DNA of 64,000 nt. Source: Crossaster papposus. Taxonomy: Eukaryota > Echinodermata > Asteroidea > Velatida > Solasteridae. Below, piece by piece: positions 11,697-64,000 of this stretch. The notes beneath the pieces are model-generated. The model made no database searches. It saw nothing but the letters and a program-made list of their open reading frames with translations, and was not told the DNA's origin. The position numbers were made by a program, and so were the translations under genes. The stretch lies in the NCBI GenBank assembly GCA_037893245.1, contig JBAIAA010000650.1, positions 62,001-126,000 on the forward strand, read 5' to 3'. Position 1 is the first letter of the stretch, and every line of letters begins with the position of its first letter.

Positions 11697-11859
11697 TTAA
11701 GAATGTAATGTGTTGTGTCTAAGATCTCAGAGTATCGTTTAATTTATGTTTTTTAGCGGCAACATCTTATCACAAATTCTCCAGAAAAGTCGTAGTTAAT
11801 TTAGCTGTATGCATTTGAAACGAGGAGAAAAAAATCTTGCAATCGATGTTATCTTGAGT

Positions 11860-12720: not shown

Positions 12721-13039
12721 ATAATTTGTCTCATTTTTTTAAAGTTTTCCTCGACCGCTTGAACTCGTTTTAATGGTTTCGACGTCTCCACTCACCTATA
12801 CTAACAATCCCGGGCATCCGATACTTACGATCGATGGTGCTGTGAGATATCGGATCCGCGCCGTGGAAGGAAATTAGTAGAAATTTCGCAGGTATAACGA
12901 GTGGGTAAACATCGGTAACATAATTGCCTTGCGAAGAATCCTGCAACAGAGACATCAAAAGAAAGACAGTTGTTTTGCGGGGCACGGGATTGACGAGTGA
13001 TCGGGATCTGTTTACCCCAGCCGGGGTCTGTGAGGTGCG
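12721..13039 (+). promoter_or_regulatory. Probable 5' UTR and promoter region of the receptor gene
   Basis: Sequence immediately before the start codon. No upstream ATG-led frame of note overlaps the start, and I could not identify a clear TATA box or initiator. An additional non-coding first exon further upstream cannot be excluded. Confidence 0.3.
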
Positions 13040-13103
13040 ATGACGATGGAACGAAGGGTTGCTGTACTGTTATTTAGTCTGACGGCACTGCGGTTTATCG
13101 CAG
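13040..13103 (+). CDS. Exon 1: start codon and signal peptide
   Basis: ATG at 13040 followed by a second in-frame ATG at 13046. The peptide has a short basic n-region (MTMERR), a hydrophobic core (VAVLFSLTAL) and small residues near the end (IAG), typical of a secretory signal peptide. The second ATG has the stronger context (A at -3, G at +4), so translation may start there. The exon ends CAG|GTAAGT in phase 1, matching exon 2. Upstream untranslated sequence and the transcription start were not resolved. Confidence 0.78.
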
Positions 13104-16100
13104 GTAAGTCTAATTCACACATTTCTTGCTTTTTCAAAAAAATAGTATTTTGTAAAAACAAAACAATTATTCATAAACCCGTCCGAATCCACCTGATGCA
13201 GATGTAGTTGCTAGCGTTTATACGAGTGTTTTCCAAAGTATAAATTCGTTTGATTTTCTTTCAACACCCTGTAGAAGTCATTAAGGTTTCAATGGAGTGT
13301 TCCAATGTCTTGCTAAGGTTTCAAGGGAGTGTTCAAATGTGTTCAAAAAAACCCACACAGTTACATTAACCATAGAGAAAGGCTGTTCCTTTCTCTATGC
13401 ATTAACAGACAAAAAGCTCGTCCTATTTATGTATAATAGAAAGTAATAAGCACTAATATTACACAAATTAACAATCGTTACACTCTCTGTAGACAATCCT
13501 TGAATTATACAGAGAAATCCGGCGAACGTCTATACTGCCAGTATGAATTTCAACAAAACGCGGTTACCCTCTTAAAGGTATAATACACCATTGGTAAATG
13601 CTTGAATTATCAGGAATGGGTGGATTTGGGGGTAGTATTTTATAGTAAATATCGTTTAACTGACCTGTCCAAAGTTTTACAATCATGATGTTGAGAAAAA
13701 AACTAGAAAAATTTGTTTTTAACTGGCGTCTGGCAGTTGTTTTCGGTCTCCTTGGTTTTTTTTCGCGATCGCCGTTTGGCGATCCTGTCATTTTTTTTTA
13801 CAATTACAGGATATCCAGCGCAATCATTTTGCTGGATGCCTAGATAGAATCATTATTTACTTTCAAATAAGTAAGATATTTCTTAATAATACGGCTGCAA
13901 AACAAATTCGATATCTGCAAATGGTGTATCCTGACCTCTAAGCTCAACAGCGCAATAACGGCTTCGGAGGAAACGTATCCATAAACTCACAAATCTACCT
14001 AAAGTGCAAAAGCATGAACAATCTAATATAAACAACCACTTTAATTTAATCAAATCGAATTGGAATTGAGCTCAAAAAGCCAAATATGAACAGACTTGTA
14101 TAAAAAAAGCAAATCACAGCAGGCAATTATTATACTCTCAGTATATCATCGGGATTTCTTTAAAGATCATATAGCAAGACTTGATCGAGCAGTAATATGA
14201 ACAGACTTGTATAAAAAAAAGAATCACACCCGGCAATTTGAATCTTGTTATACTCTCAGTATCATCGGGATTTCTTTAAAGATCACCATAGCAAGACTTG
14301 ATCGAGCAGCTGGCCGAGTTCGTATATTAGGCCGTGTCCGAAACGGGCTTCCAGAGCTACGGCTACGTCTATTGTCAGCCTGCTCACGTGTATTTGTAAT
14401 GGTCGAGCACCAAGACATTAGCCATAGACAAGAGATTCGGACGCGGCCTCACTATTAGGAGACGATTTTAGCATGGTGCTCTAAATCACAGAATTACCAG
14501 CCTAACAACTTCGTGGCAAGTGTATACCAATTAGGTGCACATTTCTACATGGTCGTTATACCTTATCGGGCTTTCAACTGGGGGTCATTTTTATAGATTC
14601 CTTGTCACTACTACTTCTAAACATAACCATACATACACCTTCGGGACTCCTAAAAATAAAACAAAGGTGATCACGCTGTCACATCCTAATTAATCCCGTA
14701 TAAACTAAACAAGAGTTGGCACATCGAAGAGGCAATAAACGCATTGATAAATGGCCTGATTTTCGTCTAAGAGCTTTGGAGGTCATTATTATTATATATA
14801 TATATCTTAATTAGCGCGTGTACATCAGCTTTCTGAACATTTAGGTGTGGATTTAAAGTGCAGATGTATGGATGAAGACCTATTTTTACATGTACCTACA
14901 CCATGTAGAAACATATTGGTTACAAATAACTAATTGATTGGTATGTGTTCAACCAATATTATTGGTAAATTTGTAACCGAAATATTGGTTATTTTGAATT
15001 GATTGGTATGTTTCCAACCAATAATATTGGTAATTTTTTTCCGAAATATTGGTTATTTTGACCAATATTATTTGTTATACTAATTCTTCCAAATAGGCAC
15101 TTTGGGAGACAAATTAGCGATAGTTTTGATTCACTTGGGAGACAGTGGCACTTAGGGAGACATTTCAGTGTCTCCCTAAGTGTCTAGCTACCCCACAAAA
15201 CGATATTTGGGAGTTATTTTTGCTCGGAGAAGACAGATTTGGGTCTAAATAGCATAAATATGAAATTTCGTGGAAAAAGCTCCAGGTAAAAACGGGTTAG
15301 GTTACAATAAAGATTGTGCACGACTCTATGAGATTGTCTCCCAAAGTGCCCATTTGAATTACTAACATCATTAGCTATTTTGACCATTATTTTTGTTAAA
15401 ATGGACCAATATCATTGGTTGAACACATATCTACCAATCAGTTGGTTAGTTCAACCAATCTGTTTTTAGGGTGTATATTGTTCATGTTACGCGCATTGCA
15501 AAAGTCATGGCGTATAGAGGTGTCTTTTTGGAGAATCTGCGATTCTGCGTAGCGCGCGAAGGCGCGTTTATCTACACGTACAGAAAGCGGCGCCCTTCCC
15601 CACGACCCAATTTGATGACGTCATTGTGTTCCACAGGTCACCGTGAAAATCGATACCCACTGTACTATCTTCCCCTCTCTATTATCTTTCTATCCGGGTA
15701 CATGAACTATATTACATGTATGATGTAAAGAATAAAACCCCTCGGGTAAATCTGTAGACGCGAAACGCTTTCCAAATAGACCTTAACACTTTGTGCAATT
15801 ACCTACAGCATATCATGTTATAACCAACAGAGTATTTACTCTTCACAACAGAATATAAGCGAAACTGGAACACGACCTGTAAACGGAAATGTTGGGCGCC
15901 CGAATGTACTTCAGTAACGTATCATTGTTTGCATTGACACTGGTGAAAGGCAGCCTGCGGTAAAAAGGCGTTTTGGAAACAGAAGTTTGAATGAGTGGTT
16001 TGCAACATTGGCCGTTATATACAGAAAAATACAGGGGAAGAGTTAAAAAGTCTCTCGTATACCACATCGCACATCGTTTACGCGGTTTTTATATAACACG

Positions 16101-19100
16101 CTAATATTACCCCAGGGGTAGATTGGTCCGCAATTTCTCAAATCGCTCAGTGGCTAGACTCTTCTTATCCAGCCGGATGTATTATCGAAAACTGTTGACA
16201 GCAGAAAGCAATTTCACAGATGGGAGCGGATCTAGTTCGAAACAAGAGGAAATAAACGGTGAAAATAGCCTCTTTTTGGCTGGCAATAACGGCTACATAA
16301 TTTTTAAAATTAATGCGACGTAATAGTCACGCAATTGAAGGTCTTTTTGAAGGCAGCAAGGCGACCGCCTGGCGCCTGCGGACACTTCGTTTTCGAGTGA
16401 AATCGGTTATCGCACTAAGCTTTATATATTATGGTATAAAACGTCTTGGCTATAGTTCCAAGCCAAATTTGAACAAATTCGGCAATAAATTGGGTGCAAA
16501 ATTCCCAACTTAGTTAACATATAAATCAAACATCAAATTTGTAAAATTCAGTCATAATAAGATTTACCTCATTAGGACTATACACGTGTCATTATAAGAC
16601 ACAAGAATACAAATGCAGCAGATAACGGCGATCGTCTATTTTTGAAATTATAGGCATTGTTGAAATAAGAGCATTTGGTAATTACATTTTGCAAAGATGG
16701 GTTTGAACCTTCGACCTCCTGCTAATCGTATACCGGCGGTCTACCAAATGTGCTATCCATAATAACCGGCAGTCTACCAACAGTGTGCTGTACATTATAC
16801 CGGTGGTCTATACAAATTGTGCTTTCCAATCAAAAAAATGTATTAATCTGGCCAGATGTTTTCGTTTAGACCGCACGAAGCTCTACAGCCGCGAAATAAA
16901 GCAGCGAGGAATCACCAGTACGAAACGGCTAATTACCTAATGGCATTAATAGATCTTCAGCACAAAATAATCAAGATGTTTTAACCTGCCCTTCACCTTT
17001 GATTTAGCTGCTTAATTGTCCAAGTTGCACAAGTCAAATTACACGGTATTCTTCATAGCTCAAACTGGACCGTGACTTCTCTAATTGACATACCACCTGA
17101 GGCCTATTTCATGGAGCTGCTAAGCACAACAAAATTGCTTAACATGAAACGTCTTCCTTGGCCCCAGATGGTCGACCAAAAAAATGTCTACCTTAAAATA
17201 GAATCAAGAGACTGCGATATTGTTTTGTGACTAATTTAATTGATGGCAGATGTAGCTTGGACCTAAAAAAAAAAGAGAGTTAATTTGACTGACGAGGAAA
17301 TCGTCACGCTATTGAGGGTCCTTTTTGAAGACAGCAAGGCGACCGCCTGCCGACACTTGTAACCCCGGTGCGTGTCTGGAACGTCTCGCACCGTCGAGTC
17401 TATTAATTAAGATTTGTCGACCTGACACGAACCTTCTAAGCATGGCCATGATTTCCGAGCGGTTTTGGTTTTGCTGTCTATTTTCCCCTTCCCTCGAGCG
17501 CATGGCCTTTGGCTCTTGCATGCCTCAAAGGAATGGTAACATTTTTGAAGTACATTCATCGATGAGAGTGGTCGCTCTGGGACCTTTGGTATAAAAAAGC
17601 TGGATCGGTCAATGGAAGGGGTCTGTAAACTGTCAATCACGCGTGCGCCGGTCCCTTGAGGAAAAGGCCATTTTTGGCGTCCGGTTCTAAATAATGATGG
17701 GCAACATCGATTCTGAATCGACCAACTACAACGTTAAAGGGATCATATACATTTGGTTATTACTCAAAAAATTAATGGCAATAAAAACTTAATTGGTAAG
17801 AAGTATAACAGCAGCTTTGGATGGTATAATGCATTTTTTTAGAAACCTTTCACTTCGAAGTACTACGGTTATGGGAAACGATATCACTTTTTATCCCCCA
17901 AAAATTTGAATATAAGAAGCGTTTACTGCAGTGACGTTTCTCAGATTGTGTATTCCAATGCAGATTATTCTTCCTGCGTGGACAAAACCGCTCCAGAATT
18001 TCGGCAATATCTCAAAATCGCTATATACCACCTTTTGAAATGAAATTTTTACAGGTTAGTTTTATGGTATATATCTATAACTATAGGATTGAAACAAACA
18101 GTGGGTTCAAATTACCAAACGTATACGATCCCTTTAAGGTTTTACAGTCTATTTAAAAACATTTTTCATTCAAATTTACCAACTCTCACATTCAATTTCG
18201 TCCGAAAACAAAATTCACCCGCTTTTACCAAAACCAATTTATAGTAATTTATTATTCAATTTCAACGTTTGGTAACTCTATTGAAACAATGGCTGAGGGA
18301 ATATTCGTCATTACAGATCAAATTCGTCTAAGCTGTTGCCGAATGGCATTACCGTCCTACATCAATCATGTTACAACTTATGTAAAATAGATTAGTCTGA
18401 TGTGTGTTTGATCAAGCACATCAGACTAATGTATTTAACATAAGTTTTACATTGATTGACATAAGAGGAATTCGATCTCTAAATATTGTTTTCGGCAACA
18501 CGCAGCTTAGACGAATTTGATCTGTAATGACGAATATTATCTAGCCAAAAAATGAATAAGTTGGTATGGTAAAAGCGGTATTTTTTCCGGACGAAATTGA
18601 ATGTTAGAGTGGGTGAATTTGCATGTCTATAATTCCTGGTCTATAGCCGGGAAAACCTATAGTAATTTCTTTGGTATAGGCCTATATATCTTTGGTAACA
18701 CAACGCAAGTCTATATGGATTATGTCACATGCGATATAAAAACGTGAATAATGAACGCTATCTAATCATAAAAGGCACTGGTGTGTATGTGAACACTATG
18801 CGCACGATATACAAAACCTGTAGGCGAAATTTCGCCTATTTTTAAGAATTTTCATGATGAAGATGTTAAACAAACAATATTTTACAGCTACGAAACATAA
18901 TGTAAACATGATTTGGATACGTTGGGCTTGGGTAAAATATTGTGGATATTATAACCACCGGCTTTTTCGCTCAAAAAATATTGGTTCGCCGCCCATGCAT
19001 GCATGTGCTTGTTTCCTTTTGCGATCGAGGATCGAAAATCAAAAGAAAACAAAGGGAACAAAAGATCCTCGAAGGACGGTTTCTTTGTCCTCGATCGCCA

Positions 19101-22100
19101 GGATAAGCGCAAAGCAATGGGGTTAGGTTTCAGTAAAGGAATAAAGGAAAACACAATAGGGGATCCTCGGTCGTAATGGCAATTCACGAACTACAGGGCC
19201 ACTACGTGAACACATGAGTGAAGTGATATGGCGTACATAATGAAATTCTAGATACAATGTAATAACAAATATATAACAATGTAAATTCCATATTAAAAAA
19301 AAAGGATGAAATTCAAAATCTAAAAGAGTTTCTGAGTGACCAATTCGTAACATTTCCGCTGCGAGTCGCAGGCAACGACTATACGCTGCACCTCGAATCG
19401 ACGGCACCTGTCCCCAAGATTCAGTGTCGTTTGAATAAAGGCTGTCACGGCCGTTCGAGAAAACCTGAAATTCTAGGAGCAGGAAACAGCAAGAAAGAGG
19501 GGGGACAAGTGCCGGATTGTGGTGAAAGCTGATCACGAAAATGTGCGATTTCTTGCGCCTAAACGATAAAAATAGCGTCGTGAAGGACTGTGTTTCCAAT
19601 ATACAACCACGGTACATTACAGAATGCACGTTTCAGATGCTTCAACCCTTTTACTAGACTCTTGTGCTCCGATTTTGTATACCTTGGCCGATAACGCGTG
19701 GCGTATACGTTCCTTAACCACGCGTACCGAACGAGCTGCACGTTTGAAAACACTCGAAGAGAGGAAAAGCGCGTCACGTTTAAGGTGTTGATTCTAAACG
19801 CACATTAGCTTATGGAAGTGTGTGGAGTGGGTTTTTTGTATTCTCTGTGCGCATTTGGGAGTTTGTGATAACAACTGTTTGTTGGTTTGGAAGGGATGCT
19901 CGTCTGTTCTTGGTTAATGGGGTAGAATTTGGCTCTTAACTTTAACGTGGGTGTTTCTGGGAACGAGCGCATCAAAACGAACCACTTTAATTGGTCAAAG
20001 ATTTATTGGGTTCATATCTGGTTACCAAACTATCCTGCGGTCCGCTGGTTACGGTGGTCGATACGTGCGACGCGGGTTTGAACCCTTCTTGGGCAAGACA
20101 GTTTACTACAACTGCTTCTCCCCACCCACGAGTACATAAAAACGAGGGTGTCCCCAAATTGACGACCGTATAACCATAACTTGAAATCGCCTATCTCCTT
20201 TTATGTGTTCAGTTTCCACCGAAAATCGTTTATTAAAGCTCAGTATGTCAAGGAAGTTTTTCTTCATTTGTAAAAAACTGTTGCTGCCCTAATTCCGCAA
20301 AAAAATGCACAACTGACAAGGTAGATTATCCCTTTAAATGCTGTGTTGTCCTCATTCAGCGACAGGAGGTATACTGTGCAGGGAATCTTGAGTCGTCAGC
20401 TCGTGGTATTGAGTGGCAGTAATCGATGGCGCATGTACAAAGCTTAAATATGACTATTGTAATGTGATAACAGTGTAGAAATCTGATGGGACCTTTATCG
20501 TGTGCATCTATTATGTGTGTTATATACATGACTTCTAATTATAATGGTCGAGTTGGTCCCTAACGACCTATAGGCTCCAGTCCAAGGGCTGTAGCCGAAT
20601 CAAGTGGGACTGATTTGCAGCCAAATTGTCGGATACTAAACCCAGACAGTGTCTTCATCAGACGTCAGATATTGTTTCATTCAAGTTCGAGTGGCCCAAT
20701 TTCCGGACGCCTCATTTCCGGAATCTTGCTACAACATGATGCCACCGATATCTTTAATATATTCCAGTGACGTAAAACACCTGGGAGTGTGTGTGAGTTT
20801 GTTTTTGATTGAAATAGGGGACGTATGACAAAGGGAACAATGGGGTCCCCTATTCCGCAAAGGTCCCCGATTCAGACTCGTGTGCAAATCCTATGGCGAT
20901 CATCCGAAAACGTTAGAGTACAAACAAAAGAGGGAAGACGGTCGGACAATGCCCCGTCCCCTATTGACGGCATTTACCCACTGTTGTGTGTGTGTGTTTG
21001 TTTAACAAATGATGCATACTTTCTTAAGATACTGTGACTTCAGTCTGTAGAAAAAAACGAATCCGGCTTTAAGACAACCCGCGTGACACTTGAACATGCC
21101 GTTTAAATAATGCATGGTAATACTGGAAACTATGTACAGGCGAAAGCTCGTTAAAATGCGAATAAATGTGTCCCATCACTTGAACGTGCCACTTCTATTT
21201 GGAGTATCTGCAAAGGATACACGCAGACAGAATACATTATGATAGGTAGGTACGACTAACTTTGAAAAGTCACTGTTACATGTACTTCAAATTGTGGTTT
21301 TCGATACAGTACACGTGTAACGAGGGGTTACAGGATCCATCATTCGCAATTTGCGTCGAGTGCAGTGGCGAAAAGTTGCTCCGAGACCAAACAATGTGCG
21401 ACTGCTGAACGACTTTTGACTCTTATATTAAGTAACTTGGGCATATGATCCATTTTGGAGGTCTTCTGTGTATGACGTTACAGCGTGATGGATTGAAACA
21501 CACGACTGGCTATCGCATAATGATGGATCGGGGTTGTACTTTTGTATTTCCGATAAAGAAATGTTATGCCTTGCTTTGGAAAACTTGTTATCATTCTATG
21601 AACATACATTTTTGTTAACTTCTGCAAAGAAATAGAATAAAACAAATTTTCGCCCATTACACGTAAGCACGCTGATAATATACATAACCGTAGTCCTTGA
21701 CACGGCTTAGACTAGAGAGATAAATACATTTTTGATGAATGTCCAAAGTATTATTGACGTGCTTTTGTTTTGACCAGGTCAGTGGGATTGCTACGACCCG
21801 GACCGGCGAGAGTACGAGGGTACAGTGTCGACGGCGTGTCGGACGACGAGCGCCGACTGGGCGGAGTGTGTGGAGTGCATGCAGTGGCAGAATGCGATGG
21901 ACATGCTAGGACACCTTCCCTTCAATCAATCTGCAGGTAGGTGCATAGTTTACTATAACCCTTCAATCAATCTGTCGGTAGGTGCATAGTTTACTATAAC
22001 CCTTCAACCAATCTGTCGGTAGGTGCATAGTTTACTATAACCCTTCAATCAATCTGTCGGTAGGTGCATAGTTTACTATAACCCTTCAACCAATCTGTCG

Positions 22101-25100
22101 GTAGGTGCATAGTTTACTATAACCCTTCAACCAATCTGTCGGTAGGTGCATAGTTTACTATAACCCTTCAATCAATCTGTCGGTAGGTGCATAGTTTACT
22201 ATAACCCTTCAATCAATCTGTTGGTATAGGTCCGTAGTTTACTATAACCCTTCAATCAATCTGTCGGTAGGTGCATAGTTTACTATAACCCTTCAATCAA
22301 TCTGTCGGTAGGTGCATAGTTTACTATAACCCTTCAACCAATCTGTCGGTAGGTGCATAGTTTACTATAACCCTTCAATCAATCTGTCGGTAGGTGCATA
22401 GTTTACTATAACCCTTCAACCAATCTGTCGGTAGGTGCATAGTTTACTATAACCCTTCAACCAATCTGTCGGTAGGTGCATAGTTTACTATAACCCTTCA
22501 ATCAATCTGTTGGTATAGGTCCATAGTTTACAAATATAACATGGTTTGAGGGTGGGTCAAAACTCTAAAGGATGAAAACTTCACTCTAAAAAGAGTGAAA
22601 CCTCAAATAGGGATACAGTGTATCTATGTCATATAGATATGTCTATTACGGGATTCGGGTGCACCACGAAGTGTCGTATTATGATACTTTTCTCGCACCA
22701 CGAAGTGACGGTTCTTCCATTGGTTTTGTGCACACGGTACGTCACTTCGTGGTGCGGCAAATATACATTATACATTGTACGTCACTTCGTGGTGCGACCG
22801 ACGTGCTAACTGTAGCGATGTTTCCTCTATTTTTTCTTAACTGGAATTCACAGTCCGGTTTCTTTCAACTCCGAACAGACCTGCATGTGTTATACACACG
22901 GCTTGTTTTCGTCAATGGTAGGGCACTTCATCACAAGTGACATAAACAAAGGGGCAATACAGATTTGCAGATGATATAGAACCGTAAATATTCCCAAAAC
23001 GACGATCGTTCTTCATTCTGCGTCCCTTGTCCATTAATAACGAGCCCGCGGTTCAACGACGTATAGCGCGCCGTTTCGTCCCAGTGTATATACGCGCAGC
23101 AGATTAGCCGTACGTGCGTCATCAAAATCGGCCGGCATATTTTCTTTTGATCGAAAAAAGAAGACTTGTCCCGGCCAATAGAGAGTAAACTAGGTCTTCT
23201 TCACACACCTCGGGGTTGCCCTAAATGCGATATTTTGTTACCACTTCCTTCGCGACATTGAGAGAAAAATAGTGCTGTCCGATACCTCACCAAAAAAAAC
23301 AAAACGAGTGAAAAAGGGGGCCTGAAGTAAACTTTACATCGCGATGAATTATGTTACCCCAAATCTTCCCGACCACAATCTATCATGTCGGGCAATGATC
23401 GATAATCCCACGGTAACTTCCAAACGTCTCTGCGATACAGTTTAAATGAATTAACGATGACATCCGTATAGAGCTCCAAGGCGAATACGTGCAAAATTCG
23501 GGGAGAGCAAAACCTAGCATTGTCCTCGGAAACATTCTTCTGGTCATTCGCAAGTTGTTGGATTTTTTTCTCGTAATTTTTTGTTTGTAATATAGGCATG
23601 TACCCTGAAGTACATTTAACAGTAAATATGTACAAAGGAATATAACACATTAATCATCACATAGATGTGGTTCTCTCATGTAAGATTCATGCGGATATCC
23701 CTTTGGGTAAAAACCTAGTTGGGGGAAATCTAGGGATTATATCATTTTGTTAGGACCTCAACTTTTCGAAGTTTTCGAATTTTGTTTTCAAAGATTGATG
23801 GAAATGTTTATGTTAAGCTACATTTAAGTGGTACATACATGGCGTTCACAAATTAACCCTCAGTCTTAAATCCTTCACCGAACCAAATTCATAGATAAAT
23901 AACAGTTCTCAAAACGTATTTGTTTAAAAGTCTGAGCAGTGGCCTTTTTATTAATTGTGTGATGAACTACTTTAATGCAAGTTTGCCCGCTTAACACCGT
24001 TTCTATAGAGTATCTGTTCCTTTGGGAAAATTGTGCGACTCCTGTTGCCCCATCCAAACGAAATTCACTGGGGGAACGTTCTGCTCAAGCAACCCTTGGC
24101 AGTTCAGGCTTCGATCAGCCCCGCGCTCAGCTCTCTCGTCATGATAATCTCGTCAAAAGAAGACGGACGCGACGAGCCGTGGGCGTGAGTTCATGCATTC
24201 GTATATAAACACAACACAAAAGAACGTTCTTGAGGGAAGATTTAATGCGAGGGCAACATTTCGATCTCTTAGCCTGAATTCCGTGTTCTCATGTTTCACG
24301 TTGCTGGTGGGCACGCCTGGATTCCGTATTGCTTCGGATTTCAGTCATGCACAGATTCCACGAGTGGGCACGAACAATTAAGATCGAGGAATCAAATAAT
24401 TTCTGCTTGGAGTTTATTTATTTTATACAATGTTGTCGCAGGTTGTTTCGAAGAGCGCGCGTGCTGTGTGACAATTAAGGCGGTGCGAACGCCGAAGGCC
24501 TGCATGTTGTGCCAAATAAATCGGATTTGAAATCTGACTGCGCATTCGATGGTTTATGTGTGATATTAGACTCGGCAAAACAGTTTTAAATGTCTTCGCG
24601 TAAACTCCTTTGGCTTTGCCAAAACTGCGCTGTTGCATGAAACAGACGCGTACGAAACAACGATTACTAGCGCTCATTGGCTGAAAGTATGGCAGATAGG
24701 TGACGGGGTTGTGTCTTTGATAATACAAGCATGAAAACTGGCACACAAGTCCGAGTATATCATTAGAAAGATATTTAGATACAGGGCCACTGCAGATTTG
24801 TCCTTACATTTTTTTAAAAACTTTTTCAAAATGGCTGCTATTGCTTGTTATTCTACCTACATTTTCAAAAGGACAAATCTTGTCTAGGGAGCTATTCAGC
24901 GATCACAGAACGGCGGTTGTACGCGCAACAGGCACTACGCCTACGCACGAAATTCCTTTGGGAAGCAGCGATAAGTAGATATGCCACACAGGCCCGCGCG
25001 TCTGCTGAATGGGTAGTTGACTGCGTGAAGCCGCTTTGCGTATTGAAAATACATAGTCGAATTTTGTATGAAAATAAATAATTAAAATAAATAAGTCTAT

Positions 25101-28100
25101 TGTCCCATCTCGCCGCTAGGAAAGGAACGAAAACACCGTTATGTCAGGGTGGCTGGGAGATGACAACCTTCACACGGGCCACCCTGTTTCCACTCATGTC
25201 ATCAAACCGATGTATGCAGTAACAAGTTAAGCTGTTCATCATACAAAAGAAGAAGACCGTTGTGTCGACCACCCTAGTGGCCCCTGACCATGAGTCCACT
25301 TAAAGATGATCTAATGCCGCCATATGGAAATCATCTATATATACCTTGGTATTCATTGCAACCGTCAGAAAAAAAATCTTACATAAAACAGGACAAAGCA
25401 CTTTCTTGCATGTCCTTGTCAAAACCTATTTAAAAACAAGAGCGGCCCTATGTCAACTATCTTTTAAAATGCACTTCTTGTGCGAGGCTGATAAAGCAAC
25501 AAGCAAAATAGTGTTCAATGGCAAACCGATTTATTTCTCTACGAGCGCGATTCGCATTTCGATTCGCAATTCGCAATTCCTTTCGGACTCAAAATTTGTA
25601 AAAAAAAAAAATTCAAAATCAAATCGGGTACAAATCAGGAATCGGGTCTACCAAAGAGCTTAACGGAACAAGGGTGGTAACTTTGGGACGACGGCAAGGT
25701 GCCTATGCGGAAGTTGAGGAAAGTGTTCTACGTCTTCGGCAGTGAACAATATCGCCGCGTTCGCATTGGACTTGTTTTGGTAAAACCTACAGAGAACTTA
25801 ACCAAATTAAATCCAATGCGGACAGGGGGTAACATTGTCAAATTGTCCATTTTACTCTCCGCAACCGTAAAATCTACAGGCCCAAGCTTCTAGCGGAGGA
25901 TTTAACACCGTTAACTTTGACAATCACGTACTGTAACATTTGACAATATTAAGTCCAATGCGAACGCGGCTTTTGAAAGTCAACCGCACCAATAATGTAT
26001 ATAATCGGCCGCCTGGCTTCGAGTGCTCGCTAAATTTGAACAACTAACGTGAGCCGTCAGGGAAGTACGTACACAAATTCATGGGTAAATATCAAATGTT
26101 TCGTTTGCGTGCCGGTATATGATCAGGTATTAGGAGTCACCTGAAGTATTGTCTTTTAAACATGACTCTTTGCTCTGTCCAAATTATCATGAAAGTGTAA
26201 GGTTTTCCCGGCCATTTTAAACGAATTTTCTAAGCAACAGCTCAGAAGAATTTGATCTGCAATGACAAATATTTTCGCGACACTGTTTAAATAGAGTGAC
26301 CAACATTTAAAAATAAATGGCAAATGACTAAATTGGTTTGGTGAAAGCATAAAGAAAGGAAGTTTGGTGAAAGCGCGGGAGAGTTTGTGAATTTGAATAA
26401 TAGGTTTTTTTAGTAAATAGCCGGGGAAACTTATCACGTACAGAGACACTTCTCGAGATCGTTATTTGTTTCCCCTGGGGAAAAATTCTTTGGCGTTGAC
26501 TGGAATATTCAAGAATCTAATCAAGGAAATATAAATCTCCCGGCGTCGCAAATACGAAAAGGAAATGCCATCGTATCATCGTATCGGCTCCAAGGCGCGG
26601 GCTTAATATGTTGTTTGCTATCGATTCCCTCGTGCATGCGACCTCACTCAATAGCATTATGCATTCAAGGTGAACGATGTCTCGACCTATCGAATTAAGA
26701 CCCGTCCGAGGTTTTGTCAGACGGCGAGATGGGGATACTAGGAGCAGAAAGAGGATGAAATCGGAATCTGGACAAAGAGGACGTCTGAAAATGAATCACA
26801 GCATCTCATGTGATAGAAGATGCGCAGTAGACCAGGGTCCAATTTCAGGGCTCTGTTAACTACAGAATTCCTCGCCTACGGTCACCATTTTCCGCTAACC
26901 GCGCTAGCAGAAAAATTATGTGCTTACAGTGTAAGTAAAGCAAAGAATCCTTAGTTACGGGTTGTACGCATGCTCAGATACCAAAATTCCTCGCTAACGC
27001 GTGAAATATGTTTACAGTAAGCACCGAATGTTCTGCTATAGTAAGCAAGGATTTTTCGCTAACAGTAAGCAGAGCCAAGAAATTGGGCCCTGTACAGCTG
27101 TTCAATGGTGTAATTGCCGTATTGTCTCAGCGTACGTGTCTAACGAAGTTTATATTTTGTTATAAAATGAAGACAAGAATAGGCAGACAAGGGCAGAACA
27201 AACTGTGGAAGGAAACATCGGTATATGTATCTTCTGATCAATTACCTTCCGCTAGATTTAGTTCACAGATATTTAGATTATTTTCAGTTGTTCATGTTGT
27301 TTTAAACTTTTTTACCAAAACATTACACTTGACGAGACAATTTTAACAATGATTATAGAAAGTCCAATTCTTTCTGTAAATCTTGACCAAATTTTACCCG
27401 ATATGGTTCACTTGGTACGACTGTGCATTATAGGGGGCCTGCCATAATACAAGGAAATTACATCTTTCACGGAAGAAACATTCCTTTTCCAAGGGAATTA
27501 TTCCATCCTTTTATTGTTAGGTGTGTTGCACACTAATGGCTTATTTGACAAAACTTTGGATACTGTAACAAATCTGGTTTGTGAGTTTCAATAAGGTTCT
27601 AACCAGAACTTGGCCAATTATGTTCATTTTGCCCTTCTTTTGCACATTTTTAAAAATACAAACTGCAGTCAGTGATATCATGGACAAGAATTACTGCCGG
27701 TTCGTAGATAGTACTGATGTGACCAACTCGGCACCAATATGTTTCCACAATAATCAGGAACAAAACGCCGCTATCTTGATGACGTGCGACATACCTCCAT
27801 GCGACGGTAAGTGCCGCTTGTTAAATTTGGGATCATCTTCATCCTCGATCGAGTGGAGATTTGTTAGGACCCGATTTATGGCCAATATGGTTTGGTCTGC
27901 GAAACACTGTACCAAAGAATCGAGGTCAACGCTTGGAGAATTCCCATCTGATTCTAAGTCCCAGGCTCCAACCTTATTTTAGAACCAAAGATGAAGCCGG
28001 AATTGGAGACATAGCCGAAATAAAAATAAAAAAAACTTTAAACAATATTGTGATTAGCTTTCTTATATACGGCGTGCCATTTGTTTATATCTACATTCAA

Positions 28101-49100: not shown

Positions 49101-52100
49101 TGGCTTAGGCTCCAACGGAACGAGATTAAAGGTAAATTTTGACAGGATTTCGACTTTTTTTGTAATTTTGTTAAATATATAGGCGAACATAGAAGCTTGT
49201 TTGTTTGTGTCAATATGTAAAACGGGAATCGTTTGCGACCGTCAAAGTCCAGCTCGCCAAATTTATTTTGCCAAAAATCGTAGAACCAACAGTCAAAAGT
49301 TCATACCTAATTACTGGCTTTGAAGTCGAGCGATCGTTGGAAATGGTACAAATTCTTCCTTTCTTGAAGATAACAGTACACAAGGTGCTACAGTTTCAAG
49401 GGATGCGAAAAAAATACTACATGTATTGTTAAACTTACAGCCAAGAAAACTAGATTTCATAATAATTTGTCAATTTCGAATTTGTTTTATTTCATATTTT
49501 TGGCAAATAAATACTTGTAGTCAACGACAGGCATTACCAGTATAAAGTCGGCCTGAAGACCCTCCAGAGCGGGGAGGAGTTCGCGTGGGCAGACGGCACA
49601 CCTATGACCTACGATAACTTCCGGTGGCCTACCAACATCACGGACAACAGTACCGAGTGGTGCGTGTACATTGACATGAACGACGACCTGCGATGGAGAG
49701 AGTTCCAGTGCAGAAACGATGCTGTGCCCAGGGCAACCATTTGCCAGCTAGGTACGATACTGATAGTCGCATGTTAATTATATAGCTTTATGGGAAACGG
49801 AGATACAGAAAAATTACAAACATTGTAAACAAAGGATATGGAAAACGGATATATTTATACGCACGTGGGTAACCAGTTCGCGGAGGACGTGTTTACACAC
49901 AAAGGTTTATTTTCCGGAATTCCAAACGGATGACGGATAAGCACGTCACGAGCAAAACTGAAAAGATCTGTCAGCGACAGACTTGCAACAAGCGAAGCCG
50001 TAAATAGCAGAGTGTGCTACCCACGGATGCCAGCCTGAACCCGTCTCGGATCGAGGTTCGTGAAAAACAATCCGGCGCCTGTGCCCGGTCGATGTCAGAA
50101 TAATCCCAGCGCGAACTAGCTTTGGAATTTTGTGAGGATGCTAATCTTTTCAGATTTTTTTCTGGCAACGGAGAAATAAGTCAGATTGTTAATTTACACA
50201 GTACAACATGCATTGCCACCAAGCTTAATAATCCGAATATTCTTTTTCTGTCGATGTTGTAGATGTGGATGAATGCACGACTACCGAGCACCGCTGCTCC
50301 CACACCTGTTTCAATTTCCCAGGTGGATTTCAGTGCCTTTGCCCGAGGGGATACCGCCTGAACGGCATGGAAGACACCGCCTGTACAAGTAAGACATGCA
50401 CACGGCCTTGCCCTTCCATATTTAAGTATAGATTGATAACAAGAGAAAATAAAGCCGCGTCCGAATTTGTTTGGCTACGGATTGAATTAACACACGGGTC
50501 TATGGGATGTGGCTGCAGCCGCATCCGCAGCCGCAGCCGTACAGGCGTATGTATATTTTCCAGCCTTTAAGATTCGGTTTGGTAATATTGGAGAAACATC
50601 AGCACTTGCATGATGATTGCTTCACGCGACAAAAGGAGCAGTTGCGTTAAGACGTTAATTACATGTACAATTATTTTCTAACACATAAAAGTTAGGCCTA
50701 ATTTCTGCCTAAACATACCAACATATAGTTACTACAAATGTACAAATCATCGATGTACATGTACGTGTCTACGTGTCTACGTGACTACATGGTTTCAAGC
50801 GATATATATCTGCCCTGTAGATGCAAAGAACTTGGTCCTAAAGTGTTTCTCGAAACATTCCATGTCGTTCACCTCACCAGGCCAATGTATTATTCACAGG
50901 TAGAATTTTAAATCGAACAGTATAAATGTGCACCTGCATTTTGTACAAACACATTTTATGTTGGCCAGTGTGTTCCCGAAATCTCAGAAATTCCTTTTTA
51001 AGTTTTAAGGGTGTGTGTGTTATAGGTAACAACATTATGACGTGTGTATAGGGTATAGGGACAATAAGGTGGGTGGGGGGGGGGGGGGGGGCACCCCTTA
51101 GTCACATATCGTACTGAATATAATCTTTCTACAATGGCACAGAAAATAACAGGTAATTGTTTTGTTATATGTCGGAGTCGTGAATAAAATGTTCAATATT
51201 CGCTAATGCTGTAATGGTTGCATATTCCCAGGCGGTCGACAACCCGAGTTTACATTCACATAATTCGTTGCAAGACTAAAGACTATTTGTAAAAAATATG
51301 TACGCAGCAATAACCCTCCTAATACATGTATTATAAAACAAATTGGCTAAAAGCTTCAAAACGTTGGCCTATGTACTTAATTAATTAATTACAGTACTCT
51401 CTGCAGAACACGTGTTGTTTTAGAATCCATGTGAAAAATGAATTGACAAATATTGAGCATCTCTAATTTGACACAGTGCACGTTGAAATATTTATAATGC
51501 GAAGAAAATATTGGGTTTGGCCCATACAAAAACTTAACAAAAACCTCTATGGAAAGGGGTTTGTTGCATATTAAGAAAATGTCCGCTCCGGCCGAATATC
51601 ATCTTCTAGTAGCTGATAATATTATAAACAAAACCGAGGTCCTATTAAAACAAAAGTGGGTCTTGCAAACAAACATGTAAAAGGAGTGTCGTTACCTGCT
51701 TTTTGTTCTTCTTTTCCAGCGTTATGCAATGACAAAACAACCCCACAAGACTTGTTTCGAAATACATCGACTGACTGTCTATCCAATCCGTACGGCCAGG
51801 GCTGCCTGGATTTCACTATCCCCGATATCGACATCGGGTGGCCCGGCTTTAGCGACCAATGGCCCGGGGAGAACTACGACCAGGGTTCCGGCAGCGCCCC
51901 TTCCCTGCTGGCAGAGAGCAAGTGCATTGGTGAGACTTTAAAAAACGAACCATGCCGATTGTATCAAGCGCTATGTCGCCGGAATAAATTACTGAAGACT
52001 TTGCCCAAAACGGTGTTCATTGGTGTGAAGAACTATCCAGCGGCACGTTGGAATTCCATTTGAGAAGAAATGATTCGGCTTATTATGAGAAGGCTTTGAT

Positions 52101-55100
52101 CTGTATAAACGTCTTCGGGTGAAAGGAATACTGTAGGCTCTACTGAACACGTGTTCGTCGTGTGGCTGCATTTTAAGCAAAGCCCTTTAGGCGAGCGGAC
52201 ACAGAATTAGAGAAACAGTGTCAAGCATGGTGAAACATTCATTGGGAAGAAGAGTTGACGTTATCAAGCTACTCCCTAGAGTAGCTTATCATCCTTATGG
52301 GAATACAATTTGACGGTGTTTTTAACATTACCAAGACAGTTATAAGGGGTGAAATTCACAAAAGATGGAACATTTTAGAGGACAGGCTAAACACCAAACG
52401 TCTTATTTATATAATACAATATCATCATCGGCTATTATTGGTATATTATTCTGCGTTAGGTATAGACTTCATTACAAGTCGTGCGTTTACTCATCGTTTT
52501 AATTAGATGAAGCTGACGTCAGATGCGAAGAGATGTGGGCGCGGAATGTCGACTTGGAATACGTCTACTCCAAGCACGGCTACATCCATTCGCTCAGTTT
52601 TCCTCCGTGGTACAACCAGGGTTCCACGTGCCAAATCAACATTCAGCTGCCGCCTGGAAACTTCGTCCGGTGGGCCGAGTCATTTATGATTTTTGTTTTC
52701 TTAGAAGAATTTTTTAATCAGTTATACAAAAGTTATTCCTTTATTTGTCCAGGGTAAACCCGAACAGCAACAAGCTTGTTTTTATTAGGGTTCTGCATTA
52801 ATGACAAATTAATTACAAATTAATGAAAAAGACTTAACAATTTTACTCTTTAAACAATTATTATTAAAAAACAATGAAAGGATCTGCACTGAACTAAAAA
52901 AACAATTCACAATTTAAGTAAATTACATCATTACAATACCTAAAATAAACACGAAAGCAAACAAAAAACACGTTAAAAATAACAACAATATTACAATGAT
53001 AATATAAATAAATAATACATTTTATAATTCAGAAAATTAGGCCGCGTTTGAATATCTTGTCTAGGGCTATTGTCTAGGTATGTTGTCAAGGTGTTCGCCA
53101 ATTACAATTACACCTGGACAGGCTGACAATAGACGTAGCTGTAGGTCTTGAAGCCCGTTTCGGACACGCCCTTATTGCTTATTTATTTTGATTTTCAGGT
53201 TGGTTATCCACGAGATGGCTCTACGCCGTAAGCCGCGCACCGCCCGCTGCATCGATGTCTTGAACGTCACCGACCACCTGACACCTTACCACGCCATGTC
53301 ACGCGGGTCATTCTGCGGGAAACTGCGAGACTTGGTGGTCACGTGCCGCTCCAACAACGTCACGCTGAGACTGGATATCGGCGCCATCGGCCAGGACATG
53401 CCCAAGAAGCTGGGCTTCGTGGCGTCCTATAGCATGACCGGTGAGGTACCTTTCAAATTTTAGGATTAAAAGGAAATATGATCAAGGAATCAATGTGCGA
53501 TACATTATTAGTGATCAAATCATTACAGCAACTTCACTACTAGTATTGTTGCGACTGCTTTACAATGAAATGTATCGATTTGTGTTCCTTTGTTGATTAA
53601 GAACACGGCAGTCAGTGATTTAAATTTGCACCACAAAATTTTTATTTTCCATGGGTACTTTTTGTTGACAGTTTGAACCAAAGTATACCTTTTGGTGTCT
53701 TCACACCGCAAAAGTGCCTTCGATTGCCAAGAAACAGCATGACCTAATATGAGGCATACATCTTGCACACAAAACACAGTACATCCCAGAACGGTACATC
53801 TCAGAACAAATGAAACACGAATCGTACATAGAAATGGCATCCTCCAATATTATAACCAACAGGCTACTAGATTCCTTGTGGAAGAGAGAAAGAGTTTTTG
53901 AGACATGTTGTAGGGGAAAACTGGCCTACAGATCTGTTGCATCTTTGTCGGGCGCATCGGTGCTCAAGTATCCGTATTTTCTCACTTAATTGGTCAACTT
54001 GAGAGGGCATTTGTTAACCGAGTCGTTTTGGGTCTTGGTTGTTTGGTTTTCTCAGATTGCACGGGATCGACAGCCGAGTGCGACCCGGGATGCGGCAAGA
54101 AGGACGTCTTGACGGCGTCCAAGGGAAACTTCTCCACGACCGCTTTTCCGTCTGAGCTGCCTCCGTTCTCCATCTGTGCCTGGAATATCAGCCTGCCGGT
54201 CGGCTCTTACATCGTCCTTAACTTCACCGATTTTCTGATTGCCGAGGACGAGGATAGCTCCGAGTGCGTCGACTTCGTTCAGGTATACATCGGTTTAGAT
54301 GCGTTTTTAACTGCATACCTATATTGACCGGTTTCCATAAAAAAAATAAAAGGAAAGGTGGGTGGTGAAGAAAACACACACATCGTTTGTTTTAGCTTGC
54401 GACAAAATCCCAACTGCAGGATATGATAGATTGTCCTGTGTAACTAGGATTCCTGGCTACATGTATAAATGTATTGTAAATTGCAATCAAGCTAAACCTA
54501 CCAAACAAACAAACCCAAGTATGTATACAGAATGTTTTGAAATTTCCACCCTCAGCCCTACAAGAACTATTGGTGGCGCTGTGTAGCCCCCACAAAACTA
54601 TTGGCGGCGCTGTGTAGCCCTCAATGAGTCTATCGGTTTTTTCGCAATGGCAATGTTCTAATCACGGGTAATCGCTGTACAGATATTTCTGAGCGGTGAT
54701 GACGGGGGACCCAACGAAGACGCCCCAGCAGGCCAGCCTATGTGTGGTTCCACACCGTCTCTCATCGTTTCCAACTCGTCTTCCATCCAAGTCGTGTTCA
54801 GGACCGGACTAGACTCCAAATCGTTGGGCTTCATCGCCAAATACGAAAGCACAGGTATCTGTTTTACTGTAGTAATAAGCCAGTTCTTGGTGGTTTTCCT
54901 TTTGAGGGAAAAAAATTCACCGTTTGAGTGCAATTTAAACGGTTTATTACATAGCTTTATTTAAGTTGTCGATCTGAAACGAACTCAACTTCCAAAAACC
55001 TTTGGAACGTGCCGTATTTCAATATCGTGCTCCAACCTTCGTGCAGTATTAAAACTGCGCTACAATTTACCTTTTTTTTATTGCACTCCTTTGCATACCT

Positions 55101-58100
55101 TTGCATTAAACGACCTGTGTAGATTTTGTTGCAATTATATTGCATATGCACAGTTGAAGTCCCGAATGGGCACTACACAAAACAAATAACTACTGGCAGG
55201 CAGATCCTGGAAGGTAGAATATTCGCTGAGAACATGGTTTTACTATTTTTCCTCCAAGATATCCCTGGTTGTGGCATCGGTTTCTACAATGGTGAGGGGA
55301 TCCAACACTGCGACATGTCCGAGGCCGCCATCGCGTCAGTCAACTACCCACGACACTACCATCCAGGTACCTCCTCGGCCTGGCACATCACCACGCAGAC
55401 TGGCACTTTCATCGAGCTGGAGTTCGTCACCTTCGACGTGCCGGATCCTTATGGCATCTCCTCGTTCGTGCAGATCAACGACGGGGCGCCAGACGACAGG
55501 GGAGGCATGCTGCTGGCCAAGCTGACCAATAGGCTCCCGCCACGTGGGCCAATCAGATCCAGTTTCAACGAGATGACGGTGCGCTTCCGCGGTGACGGCT
55601 CTGTGCCCGGAAATGGGTTTTATGCCGAGTACAGAGCTGCAGTATTCACACCAAAAGTGGATTTAACTGAGGATAGTACAAACAGTGAACACACAGGTAT
55701 TTTTGATGACTTTTACTTAGACAGTTTACGATACAATTCTTTGGAGCCGCGTAGCTTAACCAACGATAAGCACTGAATTTGCCAAACAAAACAGGCAAAA
55801 CCCACAAGTTATCACACAATGTACATTACTCCTCCTTCAAATGCTTTTCACACAAAAAAAATGCACTTGGCAGTTTCATGAAATTCATCGCCCACAAAAC
55901 TGCAACAGTCATCATCACTCCCTTTCACAAAACTGCACTATTTGCATAAACTCTGACCCTTGTTTACTTGAACTCAGATACAGTCTGCCAATCAGATTGG
56001 AGGTACTATAACGGCCAGTGTTACGCGTTCCGAGAGGCCAATATTTCAATCCGATGGACGGACGCTCAGCGTCTGTGCGCCAACGGGGGCGCTAACCTAA
56101 TCAGCATCAACGACTTCGCGGAAATGAACTTCATCCACCGCTTGATGACATCTGATTGGTTGACCAATAATTCCAAAACGTACATAGGTGAGAGCGGATT
56201 GTAAACTGTTGCCGAGTTAGGTTAGATTAACCATTCACGTCACCCAATACTACAAATTACTACTTGACTAAACTACAATACTCTTACTACACTGACTTCT
56301 GATAATCGAGTAGTATTTTGTAGTACATGTACTGTGTACTGTACCTCAAAATTGTCGTGTTAGGGTTAACATTGGAATAATTTGTATATTGGGGGATGGA
56401 TTATACGGTCAGATTTTATTTTAAGAATGTTAGGAGTCAGGAAACAAATATTGTTCTCTCATCCCTGCACGGTATGTGTTATTTAAATAGTGAATATTTG
56501 AAAATGTATCGATGTTTTCTTTCCTGACCATCGATTAAAATGTATTCCAGGTTTAAGATATCACCATCAGCTTCAGCAACATCGGTGGCAAGACGAGAGC
56601 CCAATGAGCTATGCGGATTGGTTTGTACCAAGAAGAATCGAAGACGGTCTTCTGTAAGTTCGAATTCAGTAATCGAACATCATGTCTTACGTGTAATTGT
56701 TTAATATCAGATATCGTTGGATATCGGGTATCGAATGTATTTTGTTCCGACCGTACAATCTTAATTGTAAAGTATCGTGTTCGAATGAGATTAGGATTGG
56801 TACCATTTCGGGCGATTCACAATGCAGTGCGCCACCAAGCGTTTGACTCAAAAGAGCCACTTTTAAACTTTACGGTCGACTACTTCCGTACATCATACTG
56901 TAGTGAAATATCTATTCTTCATTGTTCACGCGAGGTACAACACAAACATAAATGTATCCGGAAGCGTCGTTGATTAAAACATTGTTATTTGCAGAAAAAA
57001 AATTGGAACTTTAATCGTGCGCGTCCAAAAAGACGTAAAAACTGATGAGGTCATGCAAAATGAATACCGTTTTTCAAACTGATGCCGACTTTTTCCCATG
57101 ATGCACTGCGGGTATAGCAGGATTTGCGCCTCCAACGGCAGCTTCTATGTATTGTGAATCGCTCGAATTTAATGTTATCAAATTTCCGTTTGTTTTAATG
57201 TCAGGTCGACATCACTCGTGATGAATGGAGCTCCTCAGCCAGATGGTGGCGCCCTTGAACGGTGCTCCCAGATAATTCTACGTAATCTCCACTCCACAAG
57301 CCACTGGCATGACGTGCCGTGCGCGTCTAAAAACTCCAACCAGTATATATGCGAGAAATCCAAACTCCAAGGTAGACGCAGTTATGATGCTATGTTCGTT
57401 ATCTTTTTGTCATTATTTGTGTAATTTAGTGTAATTTTAACTCGAAAAAAACTCGCAATGGGTTGTTGTGTTTTATATCTTTTTAAACCGATACTGTATT
57501 TTCATCACGTTCTTTGGGATTGAATTTTCTTTTATTGGCAGATTCCATTTCAATTTTCCCGACAGATTCGTGTGCATAACAGTGACTGTGTTAATGCCGA
57601 TGTACAAATTATCAAATCTTGACGTTTAGTTTGAATAACAACTGGCTTATTTTGTGTTCGTTTGTTTAAGGGCATTTACCGCTAACATCTCCTGAAGGTC
57701 TAGTAAAGTTGTCAAGTGCAGGTACGTTGTGCACGTAAACATTTGCTTCGTTGTGCCAATTATAATTTTAAAGTGAACAAAGAAATCGGGGAGGCGGGAC
57801 TCGAACCTGCGACCACCGGACCGGCGCTCCACCAGCTGAGCAATCTTGCCCTATGTCAGTATCTTTGTTCGAGGGCGCTAATCGGAAGTCATAAACACCA
57901 GAATACCGTGTGGCCAGGGATCACGCCCAAATTTTGGTTAAACTAGTGAAGGCAGTAAAAACAGGTTTACCACAGTTTGCTTTTCATTCTACCAGCAGTT
58001 TGCGATGATAAGTGGACGCTGGTACACAACCACTATTGCGTCAAACTACTACTAAACAGGAGTACCGCCTTCCTGAACCGGTGCCCGGCCAACTCAAGAC

Positions 58101-61100
58101 TGGCGACATCTATACACCCGAATATCACCGAGAAGCTGCCTTACTTGATCGAGTACGTCTGGGGACTAGATCCCAGCACCGATATGAGGTTTCTGATTGG
58201 TCCACGCGGAGAGGGCGCAGACCAGGCGTATGACGTCATGACATACTTCGACGGTCATTGGAGGAAAGAGCACGAGCGGGTTGCTAGAGGAGTCGACGGG
58301 GCTATTTGCGCCACGGAGGCAACAGGTGGTGAAATCAAGTGAAAATATCACAATTTGTATTCTTAAAAAAGAAAATGGGAAACAGTTTCTTTTTAGATTG
58401 TTGAATAGTTCAGAACACGGGAGTTAATACAATCAGATCAACTTTTATTCGGCGTCAATTATTGTTATATTTCATAATACAAATTCAACAAATCACCTCA
58501 AATATTCATGCTTGAAATTGTACGAATAAGAGTGGGCATGTTTTTGCTGTTATCTTTTCAGTGGAAGTTCCCGGGTGTCCTACTAATATGTTCACATGTG
58601 GATCTGGGGAGTGCATTCACCGCGTGTTTATCTGTGATCACCGCAGAGACTGCATGGACAACAGTGACGAGAATTCGTGCAGCAATGGTGCGTTTTAACT
58701 CGAAATGCAGCGAATGTGTTTGCTGCCACCAAGAGGCTCGAACCCCCTTGAGTTATCATTGTTTACTGTTCTCATTCCTTAGGTGTAGCAATTGCTGACA
58801 GTGTATGCACTGATACCAGCTTTCACTGTGGGTCCGGTGAATGCATCTCTCTGTCGTTCTACTGCGATTTCTATCCGCACTGCCAGGATGCGTCTGACGA
58901 AACTAACTGCAGTAAGTGCGTAACAAATATTATGCTTAAATGTGTGTCAATAATGGTGAAAATGTATATTTATGACATATAGCATCAGAAGAAAACTAGG
59001 TTACGAAAACTCGAACACATATTATAATTGTTAACAATTTGTTCAAACGTCATTTCCTATTACGCCCGGAGCTCTATTGGAATAGGCTTAAATGACAAAG
59101 ACTTGTGTAAAGGTAAAAATTTCGTGTATGCTACAAGTTATTGTTGACAGGTTGTATGAAATATACACACTAACGGACTAATGTACTTTCCAAAATTTAT
59201 TTTGCAGGTATTGTGACATGTACCGACTTAGAATTCCGCTGTGATAGCAGACAGTGTATTAACAAAGAGCTATATTGTAACTTAGTGGAAGACTGCGTTG
59301 ATGGATCAGACGAGCAGAATTGTGGTAAATAAATATTTGGTTCAAGTTTGCTGTGGTTTTTTTTATTTGCAAATAAACGGTTTGCTGAAAGGATTTAGAA
59401 AATGTTAGACAAATTGCGTTGTTAAACGTACCTATCACAACTGAAAGCAGTAACTCGAATTCGTTCCAAATTAAAACATCCCTGCCGTGTCCCCTGATCC
59501 CGACTTCAAATCACTGAGAGCCATAAACCGCTCAGCCAGTTGCCTCTTCAGCTTGTAGATCCTCTCATCTCTAGGCGTGTAGAAGACAGGTGGGCTCTTG
59601 TTGATGCCGCAACTTTTCACCCAAGACCACGACGGCGTGGTGTCTGCAGACTCGCTGACCGGCCGGGTGGATTTCGTCTCTGGTGTGCCGCGGTACAGCC
59701 ACGGGCAAGCAGGCAGGTCGGCGCTGGTAGTACTGCTGCTGTCATCGTCGCTCGCGTCATCGTCGTAATGCGTTGACGAGCCGGAGCGAGGCTGCGGCAG
59801 GAAGTCGCCGCTCGATGAAGCGCTGAGACGGCGTCGCTTGTAGGCTGTCTCGTCAGACCGCGGAGTGGACGGGGTTGTATCAGTTTCAGAGTCGCATCCG
59901 TCATCGCAACGATCCTGGTATTTGTCCCCACCGATCGGGGATAAAGTAGGTAGCGGTGGCATCCATTGCAGGTTTGTCTCGTTGCTTTTATCTCCGCTGG
60001 AACGTTTCTCGTACGGTGACTGAACATTGGCGTTATCCGACGCCTCATCTACGCAAGCTGAATCAGCACCACTTCGTTGCCTCTCTGAGGTCGTTGTCGG
60101 CGTTAATGTTGTCGAACTCCTGTGTTGGTTGTTCTCTTCCGAAGCATCACAGTCGCTTCCGTTTTCAGAACAGTGTGCAACGGGGATGTCTCCTGAGGGA
60201 GCAGCCTTAAACGGGATATATGGCCGGCATCTCGAACACAAGTCCCTAACCGAGTCTTGTGAACTTCGTTTCCTTTCCAAGCGCACTTTCGACCGTGTTG
60301 TGGTTTCGTCCCTGAACATTTGTAAACAGTCGCTCCCTCGTCCGTACTGCTTCCTTCCCATTTCACTTTCTGCTTGGTCATAAGGTAAACTGGTGTCGTC
60401 AGGCTCTGATTTGATGCTCCCCGTTGATGGAATGGTGTCCACGATTCTCCAGGAAGACTTGCCATCATGAGTGTTGTTGTCTTGACGGGCGAGACTTATC
60501 TTAATGTGCGGCTTTCCACCTCTCAAATTCTCGACTTCCTCATCCTCCAAGCCCTCACTGAGAGACTCCATTTTGATTCTCATGGCGTCGTAGTCTTCCT
60601 TTGTGATGGATTTAACGTCAGAGATGACCAAATCCAACTCTTCAGATCTCTCGGCTGTGGTAGACCTAATTCTCTCGCACTCACCCGTGGAGTCGGTTTG
60701 GGTGTAGCTGTCCCGTTCACCGTTTCTACTGTCTTGTTTCCGAGAGGTGACTGCGGGGTTAGCAACTGCGCCCCTAGAGCGCCCGGTCATACCCATGGCT
60801 TGTCGTAACACACTGTACGATATCATCTTCACCGACGTTTTGCCGTTTTTGACAAGTAGCAGTGGGACAACCGTGTTCGTTCGACGGGGCTGTTTTGCGT
60901 TAGCATTGAGCCCCACCATACCGGTCATTAAATTCCGTTTCATGTCTGACGTTGCTGTCGAGGAGAAGTTGTTTGGTAAAGAGAAGTGGAATAACGCCTT
61001 GCTAGATTCAAGAAAAGGGAAACGGTTTTTATGCTAGGGATTACTTCGCAAGACGTCTCTGTTTACAAACAGAATGTTGCTATGATAACTTTGCAACAAC

Positions 61101-64000: not shown

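Follow-up and report, generated by a model that had tools for sequence, protein, structure and literature searches.

The front 36 exons of a putative mosaic gene in the sea star Crossaster papposus, with a front of kringle, PAN, discoidin, lectin, EGF and CUB modules before an LDLa array and a likely LRR cap

Introduction

Do the many extracellular modules strung along one strand of a contig of Crossaster papposus belong to a single receptor and, if they do, to what kind of receptor? The window, by which we mean the whole stretch of 64,000 nucleotides that was analysed, had been given a preliminary description as 36 exons in one phase chain, encoding eight extracellular module types ahead of an LRR cap and forming, if they make one protein, an LDLa/LRR receptor with a possible G-protein output.

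Several receptor families share parts of such a layout. GRL101 is built of LDLa, LRR and 7TM regions, with twelve LDLa and six LRR in Lymnaea, and each ambulacrarian species was found to have one orthologue, depicted with the LDLa, LRR and 7TM parts (PMC8286064); six LDLa motifs are reported for GRL101 of the crown-of-thorns (PMC6267866). Relaxin receptors carry a single LDLa before the LRRs, although in some sea stars the orthologue of the dilp7 receptor has two (PMC8286064). PMC4079206 deals with the type C1 and C2 LGRs.

Results

Between 13040 and 64000 of the plus strand a chain of 36 exons could be rebuilt. Its 6031 coding bases make 2010 codons without a stop, 111 of them for cysteine, and its junctions are phase-consistent throughout. 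The exon number, start, end and phase chain of the preliminary description thus stand, as does its module order, and the chain appears to be a coherent, unusually long mosaic gene. A single protein would fit the phase and the open frame. The exons are as follows.

13040-13103, plus strand: exon 1, signal peptide of 21 residues with the start codon (second ATG at 13046)
21778-21936 and 27669-27806, plus strand: exons 2-3, kringle 1, divergent (Pfam Kringle E 5.3e-5, scanned alone)
28376-28516 and 30258-30365, plus strand: exons 4-5, kringle 2 (Pfam Kringle E 1.5e-18), aligning with plasminogen and HGF kringles
35749-35912 and 40286-40412, plus strand: exons 6-7, PAN domain (PAN_1 E 1.1e-6, 28.8 bits against a cut-off of 21.4)
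41396-41721 and 41910-42054, plus strand: exons 8-9, F5/8C (discoidin) domain 1 (Pfam F5_F8_type_C)
42580-42717, 43272-43462 and 44491-44644, plus strand: exons 10-12, F5/8C domain 2 (same family)
46665-46819, 47078-47251 and 47646-47787, plus strand: exons 13-15, F5/8C domain 3 (same family)
48958-49131 and 49521-49751, plus strand: exons 16-17, C-type lectin domain 1 (Lectin_C E 3.5e-6, 28.1 bits against a cut-off of 22.6)
50263-50388, plus strand: exon 18, calcium-binding EGF (EGF_CA E 1.3e-11, 45 bits)
51720-51929, plus strand: exon 19, cysteine-containing segment of 70 residues (exon score 47.7)
52507-52669 and 53199-53440, plus strand: exons 20-21, CUB 1 (alone, CUB E 3.9e-11)
54056-54282 and 54683-54854, plus strand: exons 22-23, CUB 2 (Pfam CUB)
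55259-55696, plus strand: exon 24, CUB 3 (Pfam CUB)
55978-56187, 56551-56653 and 57205-57371, plus strand: exons 25-27, C-type lectin domain 2 (Lectin_C E 5.5e-15, 56.5 bits)
57996-58325, plus strand: exon 28, module of 110 residues (exon score 50.1), lectin-like by eye only
58562-58687, 58783-58911, 59208-59324, 61691-61810, 62025-62168, 62479-62595 and 63501-63617, plus strand: exons 29-35, seven LDLa repeats (Ldl_recept_a)
63959-64000, plus strand: exon 36, LRR-N-cap-like start (14 residues, the first from the junction), cut by the window edge

These exons were picked by homology or module continuity, splice sites and phase, with prior knowledge of what had been claimed for the locus. Both strands were scored for exons; the splice matrices were generic, and the codon table had been self-trained on the plus strand, which biases the scores towards that strand. 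At 17 bits or more the whole window gave 43 plus-strand and 18 minus-strand candidates, and two of the minus-strand ones lie in one long open frame at 59474-61033. Of the 41 plus-strand candidates within 12000-64000, 32 overlap an exon that is in the final chain and nine do not; all chain exons except 1, 5, 26 and 36 (32/36) overlap a candidate. An unguided chain search did not recover the 36 exons by itself and held 105 exons, many of them low-scoring, in its last training round. In each of the 35 introns, reading on through the donor runs into a stop in frame before the following exon is reached. The acceptors of exons 3 (-1.7), 5 (-5.2), 8 and 17 score below zero in the matrix used, so that the placement of these exons rests on module continuity and phase; with exon 5 joined, the alignment of kringle 2 to plasminogen kringle 4 is gapless across the junction.

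Phase 1 is found at all 22 module borders (modules as drawn here), at 27 of the 35 introns overall and at five of the 13 introns within modules. Phase-1 module borders are the pattern of exon-shuffled extracellular proteins, and taken alone they fit one gene or two adjoining shuffled genes equally.

Exon 1 is the only initial exon in 10000-21700 that has a donor of at least 4, phase 1 and hydropathy of at least 2. The same loose criteria returned 18 rows on the whole plus strand, several being one start with differing ends, and five on the minus strand; the exon 1 donor (12.6), which is close to perfect, is the best of the 18. Starts at 32042, 34984 and 45421 exceed exon 1 in hydropathy, with donors of only 6.0-6.1 against its 12.6. 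Together with a candidate at 40506, these three make a split between the front and the back of the chain possible.

A Pfam search of the spliced protein, the check proposed with the preliminary description, recognises seven module types; of the eighth, the LRR, the window holds only a start of 14 residues. On the spliced pieces the Kringle family scores 76.3 bits in two stretches. Kringle 1 alone reaches 23.9 bits, under the gathering score of 34.3, and has PIC where PWC is expected. In kringle 2 a ten-residue segment is aligned opposite NPDADKGPWC of plasminogen kringle 4. Functional lysine-binding kringles have an acidic pair in the NPDxD segment; kringle 2 is without this acidic pair of the canonical lysine site.

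The introns and exon ends around the kringle and PAN modules hold two further features. A 41-bp tandem array (21918-22531, 14.9 copies, 95% match) starts inside exon 2, the 3' end and 5' splice site of which form its first unit, and within intron 2 the donor-like CTGTCG/GTAGGT recurs at mostly 41-base steps, scoring 6.9 against 10.4 for the first; it is possible that this array causes variable splicing of kringle 1. In intron 6, an open frame at 39577-39948 matches GIY-YIG below threshold (E 0.057; 14.1 bits, where 22.6 are required) and is possibly a retroelement remnant.

The F5/8C domains are matched in three stretches (E 2.2e-55, 186.7 bits). By PDB sequence search domain 3 is related to factors VIII and V and to neuropilins, the top match being the factor VIII light chain (whole-sequence E 8.9e-27). 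When domain 3 was searched against prokaryote genome contigs, none of 20 pattern matches was confirmed, an absence that says little. Intron 12 contains a 139-bp repeat (44720-45254, 3.8 copies, 100% matches).

Sugar-binding C-type lectins carry EPN or QPD plus WND motifs. Lectin domain 1 has neither canonical motif, and domain 2 has QPD, E and WHD; in PDB, domain 2 matches PLA2R, LY75 and mannose receptors, the alignments covering mainly its first two thirds. CUB is matched in three stretches (E 7.2e-41, 139.4 bits), and exon 19, scanned singly, matches no Pfam family. Exon 28 had been taken for a third C-type lectin, a reading that we do not uphold. Pfam gave it no lectin match, its sole match being to an unrelated family at chance level (E 0.2), and a PDB sequence search gave three matches, all to galectin-4 and judged to be chance (best E 0.097). 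Shuffled sequences reached its pairwise score in 768 of 1000 cases against lectin domain 2 and in 171 of 1000 against domain 1, compared with none of 1000 when the two lectin domains were set against each other as a control. An AlphaFold model of exon 28 made without an alignment was unusable (mean pLDDT 40.8).

The seven LDLa exons give six stretches of Ldl_recept_a (E 1.9e-48, 162.8 bits). LDLa 5 (exon 33) has no Pfam match, and LDLa 4 scanned alone falls just under the cut-off (23.1 against 24.1). The acidic calcium signature of LDLa repeats is retained in LDLa 1 and 3 and is missing from LDLa 4 and 5. In a PDB sequence search the array is related to LRP2, VLDLR and LDLR; a search of LDLa 1-3 against virus contigs gave five pattern matches and no confirmed one, in a viral collection where absence says little. 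Antisense in intron 31, between LDLa 3 and 4, lies the minus-strand open frame at 59474-61033, which is intronless, 520 residues long and without a match to any Pfam family at E up to 10.

Exon 36 follows LDLa 7 directly in frame (acceptor 5.6, phase 1) and reads 13 residues up to the window end. Its CPxxCxC is the single occurrence in the six-frame translation of the window. With a query of 22 residues, PDB returned five matches, all below significance (best E 0.4), of which three are LRR proteins (VLR9, VLR2 and LRRC4B), the VLR alignments running partly over an apparent expression tag, and two are unrelated (fibrinogen alpha and a pollen allergen). From these 14 residues, cut by the window edge, exon 36 is likely to be an LRR N-cap. 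The window contains no LRR repeat and no 7TM, and the chain is still open at 64000. The proposed LDLa/LRR receptor with a possible G-protein output has behind it the order of an LDLa array followed by an LRR-N-cap-like start of 14 residues, and its LRRs and 7TM would lie beyond the window.

Elsewhere in the window, ARAGORN reports a tRNA-Phe at 4472-4566, perhaps a tRNA-derived repeat, which Rfam does not report at gathering score; Rfam has no matches at gathering scores in the window.

Discussion

We favour, at a probability of roughly 55%, one large gene for a mosaic surface receptor that continues into LRRs and most likely into a rhodopsin-type 7TM region, as in GRL101 and the type C2 LGRs, where this region is close to that of the relaxin and glycoprotein hormone receptors. 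For a one-gene receptor, the signal-peptide exon with the strongest donor sits where it should, at the front. The predicted N-terminus would run from the signal peptide through two kringles, PAN, three F5/8C domains, a C-type lectin, EGF, exon 19, three CUB domains, a second C-type lectin, exon 28 and seven LDLa repeats to the LRR cap. We infer a single transcript leading to LRRs and a 7TM, and a GPCR end of the gene is a reasonable expectation. The product would be a GRL101-like type-C LGR bearing a shuffled capture front, in which the front modules may take hold of a multivalent target, such as matrix, a clot or the surface of a microbe or cell, and present it or a peptide bound with it to the LDLa-LRR-7TM core; calcium-loaded LDLa repeats and the LRRs could then relay binding to G proteins. 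Judged by sequence, the modules have their relatives in proteins with surfaces or large ligands as binding partners, and their kinds suggest that sugar, phospholipid and protein might be sensed. The ligand of GRL101-type receptors is itself a matter of proposal (IGF, PMC8286064).

The same modules would also suit one large mosaic protein that is not a GPCR, with LDLa and LRRs followed by one membrane helix or an enzyme domain, or with a secreted C-terminal part, and with a scavenger or adhesion role. We hold this to be possible, if improbable. The window has no 7TM and the chain ends at 64000, and the PDB relatives of the tested modules are secreted, scavenger or single-pass proteins (plasminogen/HGF, PLA2R and mannose receptors, factor VIII and neuropilin, LRP2 and LDLR), but LDLa followed by an LRR-cap-like exon is the order described for GRL101 and the relaxin receptors (PMC8286064). 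An adhesion GPCR of the amphioxus kind, in which the N-terminus is a mosaic, would account for the front modules, as kringle, C-type lectin, CUB, LDLa and discoidin occur on various amphioxus members (PMC2246102), and LRRs can occur on adhesion receptors (PMC12716839, Table 1). We consider it very improbable. The chain ends LRR-cap-like right after seven LDLa exons, in the order described for GRL101. A GAIN domain with GPS would lie beyond the window, and none is among the Pfam matches of the visible part.

Two tandem genes, with exons 1-7 coding for a secreted protein of two kringles and PAN and exon 8 onwards for a receptor that runs from discoidin to LRR, or a later split, seem unlikely. 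The first six introns include four long ones (8674, 5732, 5383 and 4373 bp; the median of the 35 is 551 bp), read-through of exon 7 stops after two codons at 40418 with polyA-like hexamers downstream, and the candidate start exons include 40506-40608 (donor 4.6) and 45421-45508 (donor 6.1). The stop behind exon 7 is no signal, however, because seven of the 35 exons have a stop within three codons and a fraction of 0.1975 of 2000 random positions does likewise; exon 7 as a last exon was rejected on this ground. The polyA-like hexamers occur at 1.5 per kb, the 40506 start is only 88 bases from the stop, and exon 7 has a good donor (7.2) that joins exon 8 in phase, though the acceptor of exon 8 is weak (-2.3). 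A pseudogene, or a misassembly joining unrelated exons, is scarcely credible: the two long intronic tandem arrays are places prone to assembly error, but 2010 codons are free of stops, the junctions are in phase and domain matches span them.

The single receptor that we prefer agrees with GRL101 and the type C2 LGRs in its multi-LDLa ectodomain array (six recognised stretches in seven exons), which is followed by LRRs in GRL101 and, in the visible part of the present gene, by no more than an LRR-cap-like start. It differs in its front, as the words kringle, discoidin and lectin do not occur in the main text of PMC8286064. Seven LDLa exons, with six stretches recognised, also set it apart from the relaxin receptors (RXFP, type C1 LGR) and their single LDLa. 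The closest parallel for the front comes from Biomphalaria sudanica, where GRL101-like receptors in the schistosome-resistance locus SudRes2 have an N-terminal C-type lectin ahead of LDL, LRR and 7TM regions (PMC12297450). There the lectin is one module, called unique to those genes by the authors, and the main text makes no mention of CUB, discoidin or kringle; because the top variants of the locus fall within an adjacent RING/IAP gene, position alone ties the receptors to resistance (PMC12297450). The amphioxus receptors are GPCRs with kringle, C-type lectin, CUB, LDLa and discoidin modules, as found in the present gene, but they are of the adhesion family, and we found no mention there of a receptor with all of these modules or of an LDLa array followed by LRRs (PMC2246102). 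Fourteen Ciona receptors, the LDLRR-GPCRs, have one or 2-10 LDLa with relaxin-receptor-like TM regions, but they are without LRRs, and we found no mention of front modules for them (PMC2396169). In a choanoflagellate survey LRR and LDLa are listed with rhodopsin-type receptors, whereas the adhesion-type ones are listed with LRR, Kringle and CUB (PMC12716839), and a considerable number of Xenoturbella-specific proteins have C-type lectin, PAN and kringle domains (PMC11521371).

Outside the receptors, the kringle is shared with plasminogen and HGF and the F5/8C domain with factors V and VIII and the neuropilins. PAN and CUB are also common to this group of proteins, which to our knowledge have no LDLa-LRR core and a different module order. 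Neuropilins have the order CUB-CUB-F5/8C-F5/8C-MAM, whereas here the F5/8C domains precede the CUBs and Pfam gives no MAM match. No LGR bearing kringle, PAN and F5/8C was found in the literature searched, a search that did not extend to subscription papers, preprints or protein databases. NCBI or UniProt may contain predicted proteins of the GRL101 kind that have additional modules.

More tentatively, a single-gene LGR that unites the seven recognised module types with an LRR region would place clotting-type units (kringle, PAN and F5/8C) and lectin, CUB and LDLa units on one G-protein-coupled core, as a direct-signalling sensor of clots, matrix or microbes. The gene model gives defined exons for cDNA and binding assays. 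If the gene is a GRL101-type member with a far larger capture front, it would suggest that this branch of the LGRs has been refitted by phase-1 exon shuffling for the recognition of surfaces.
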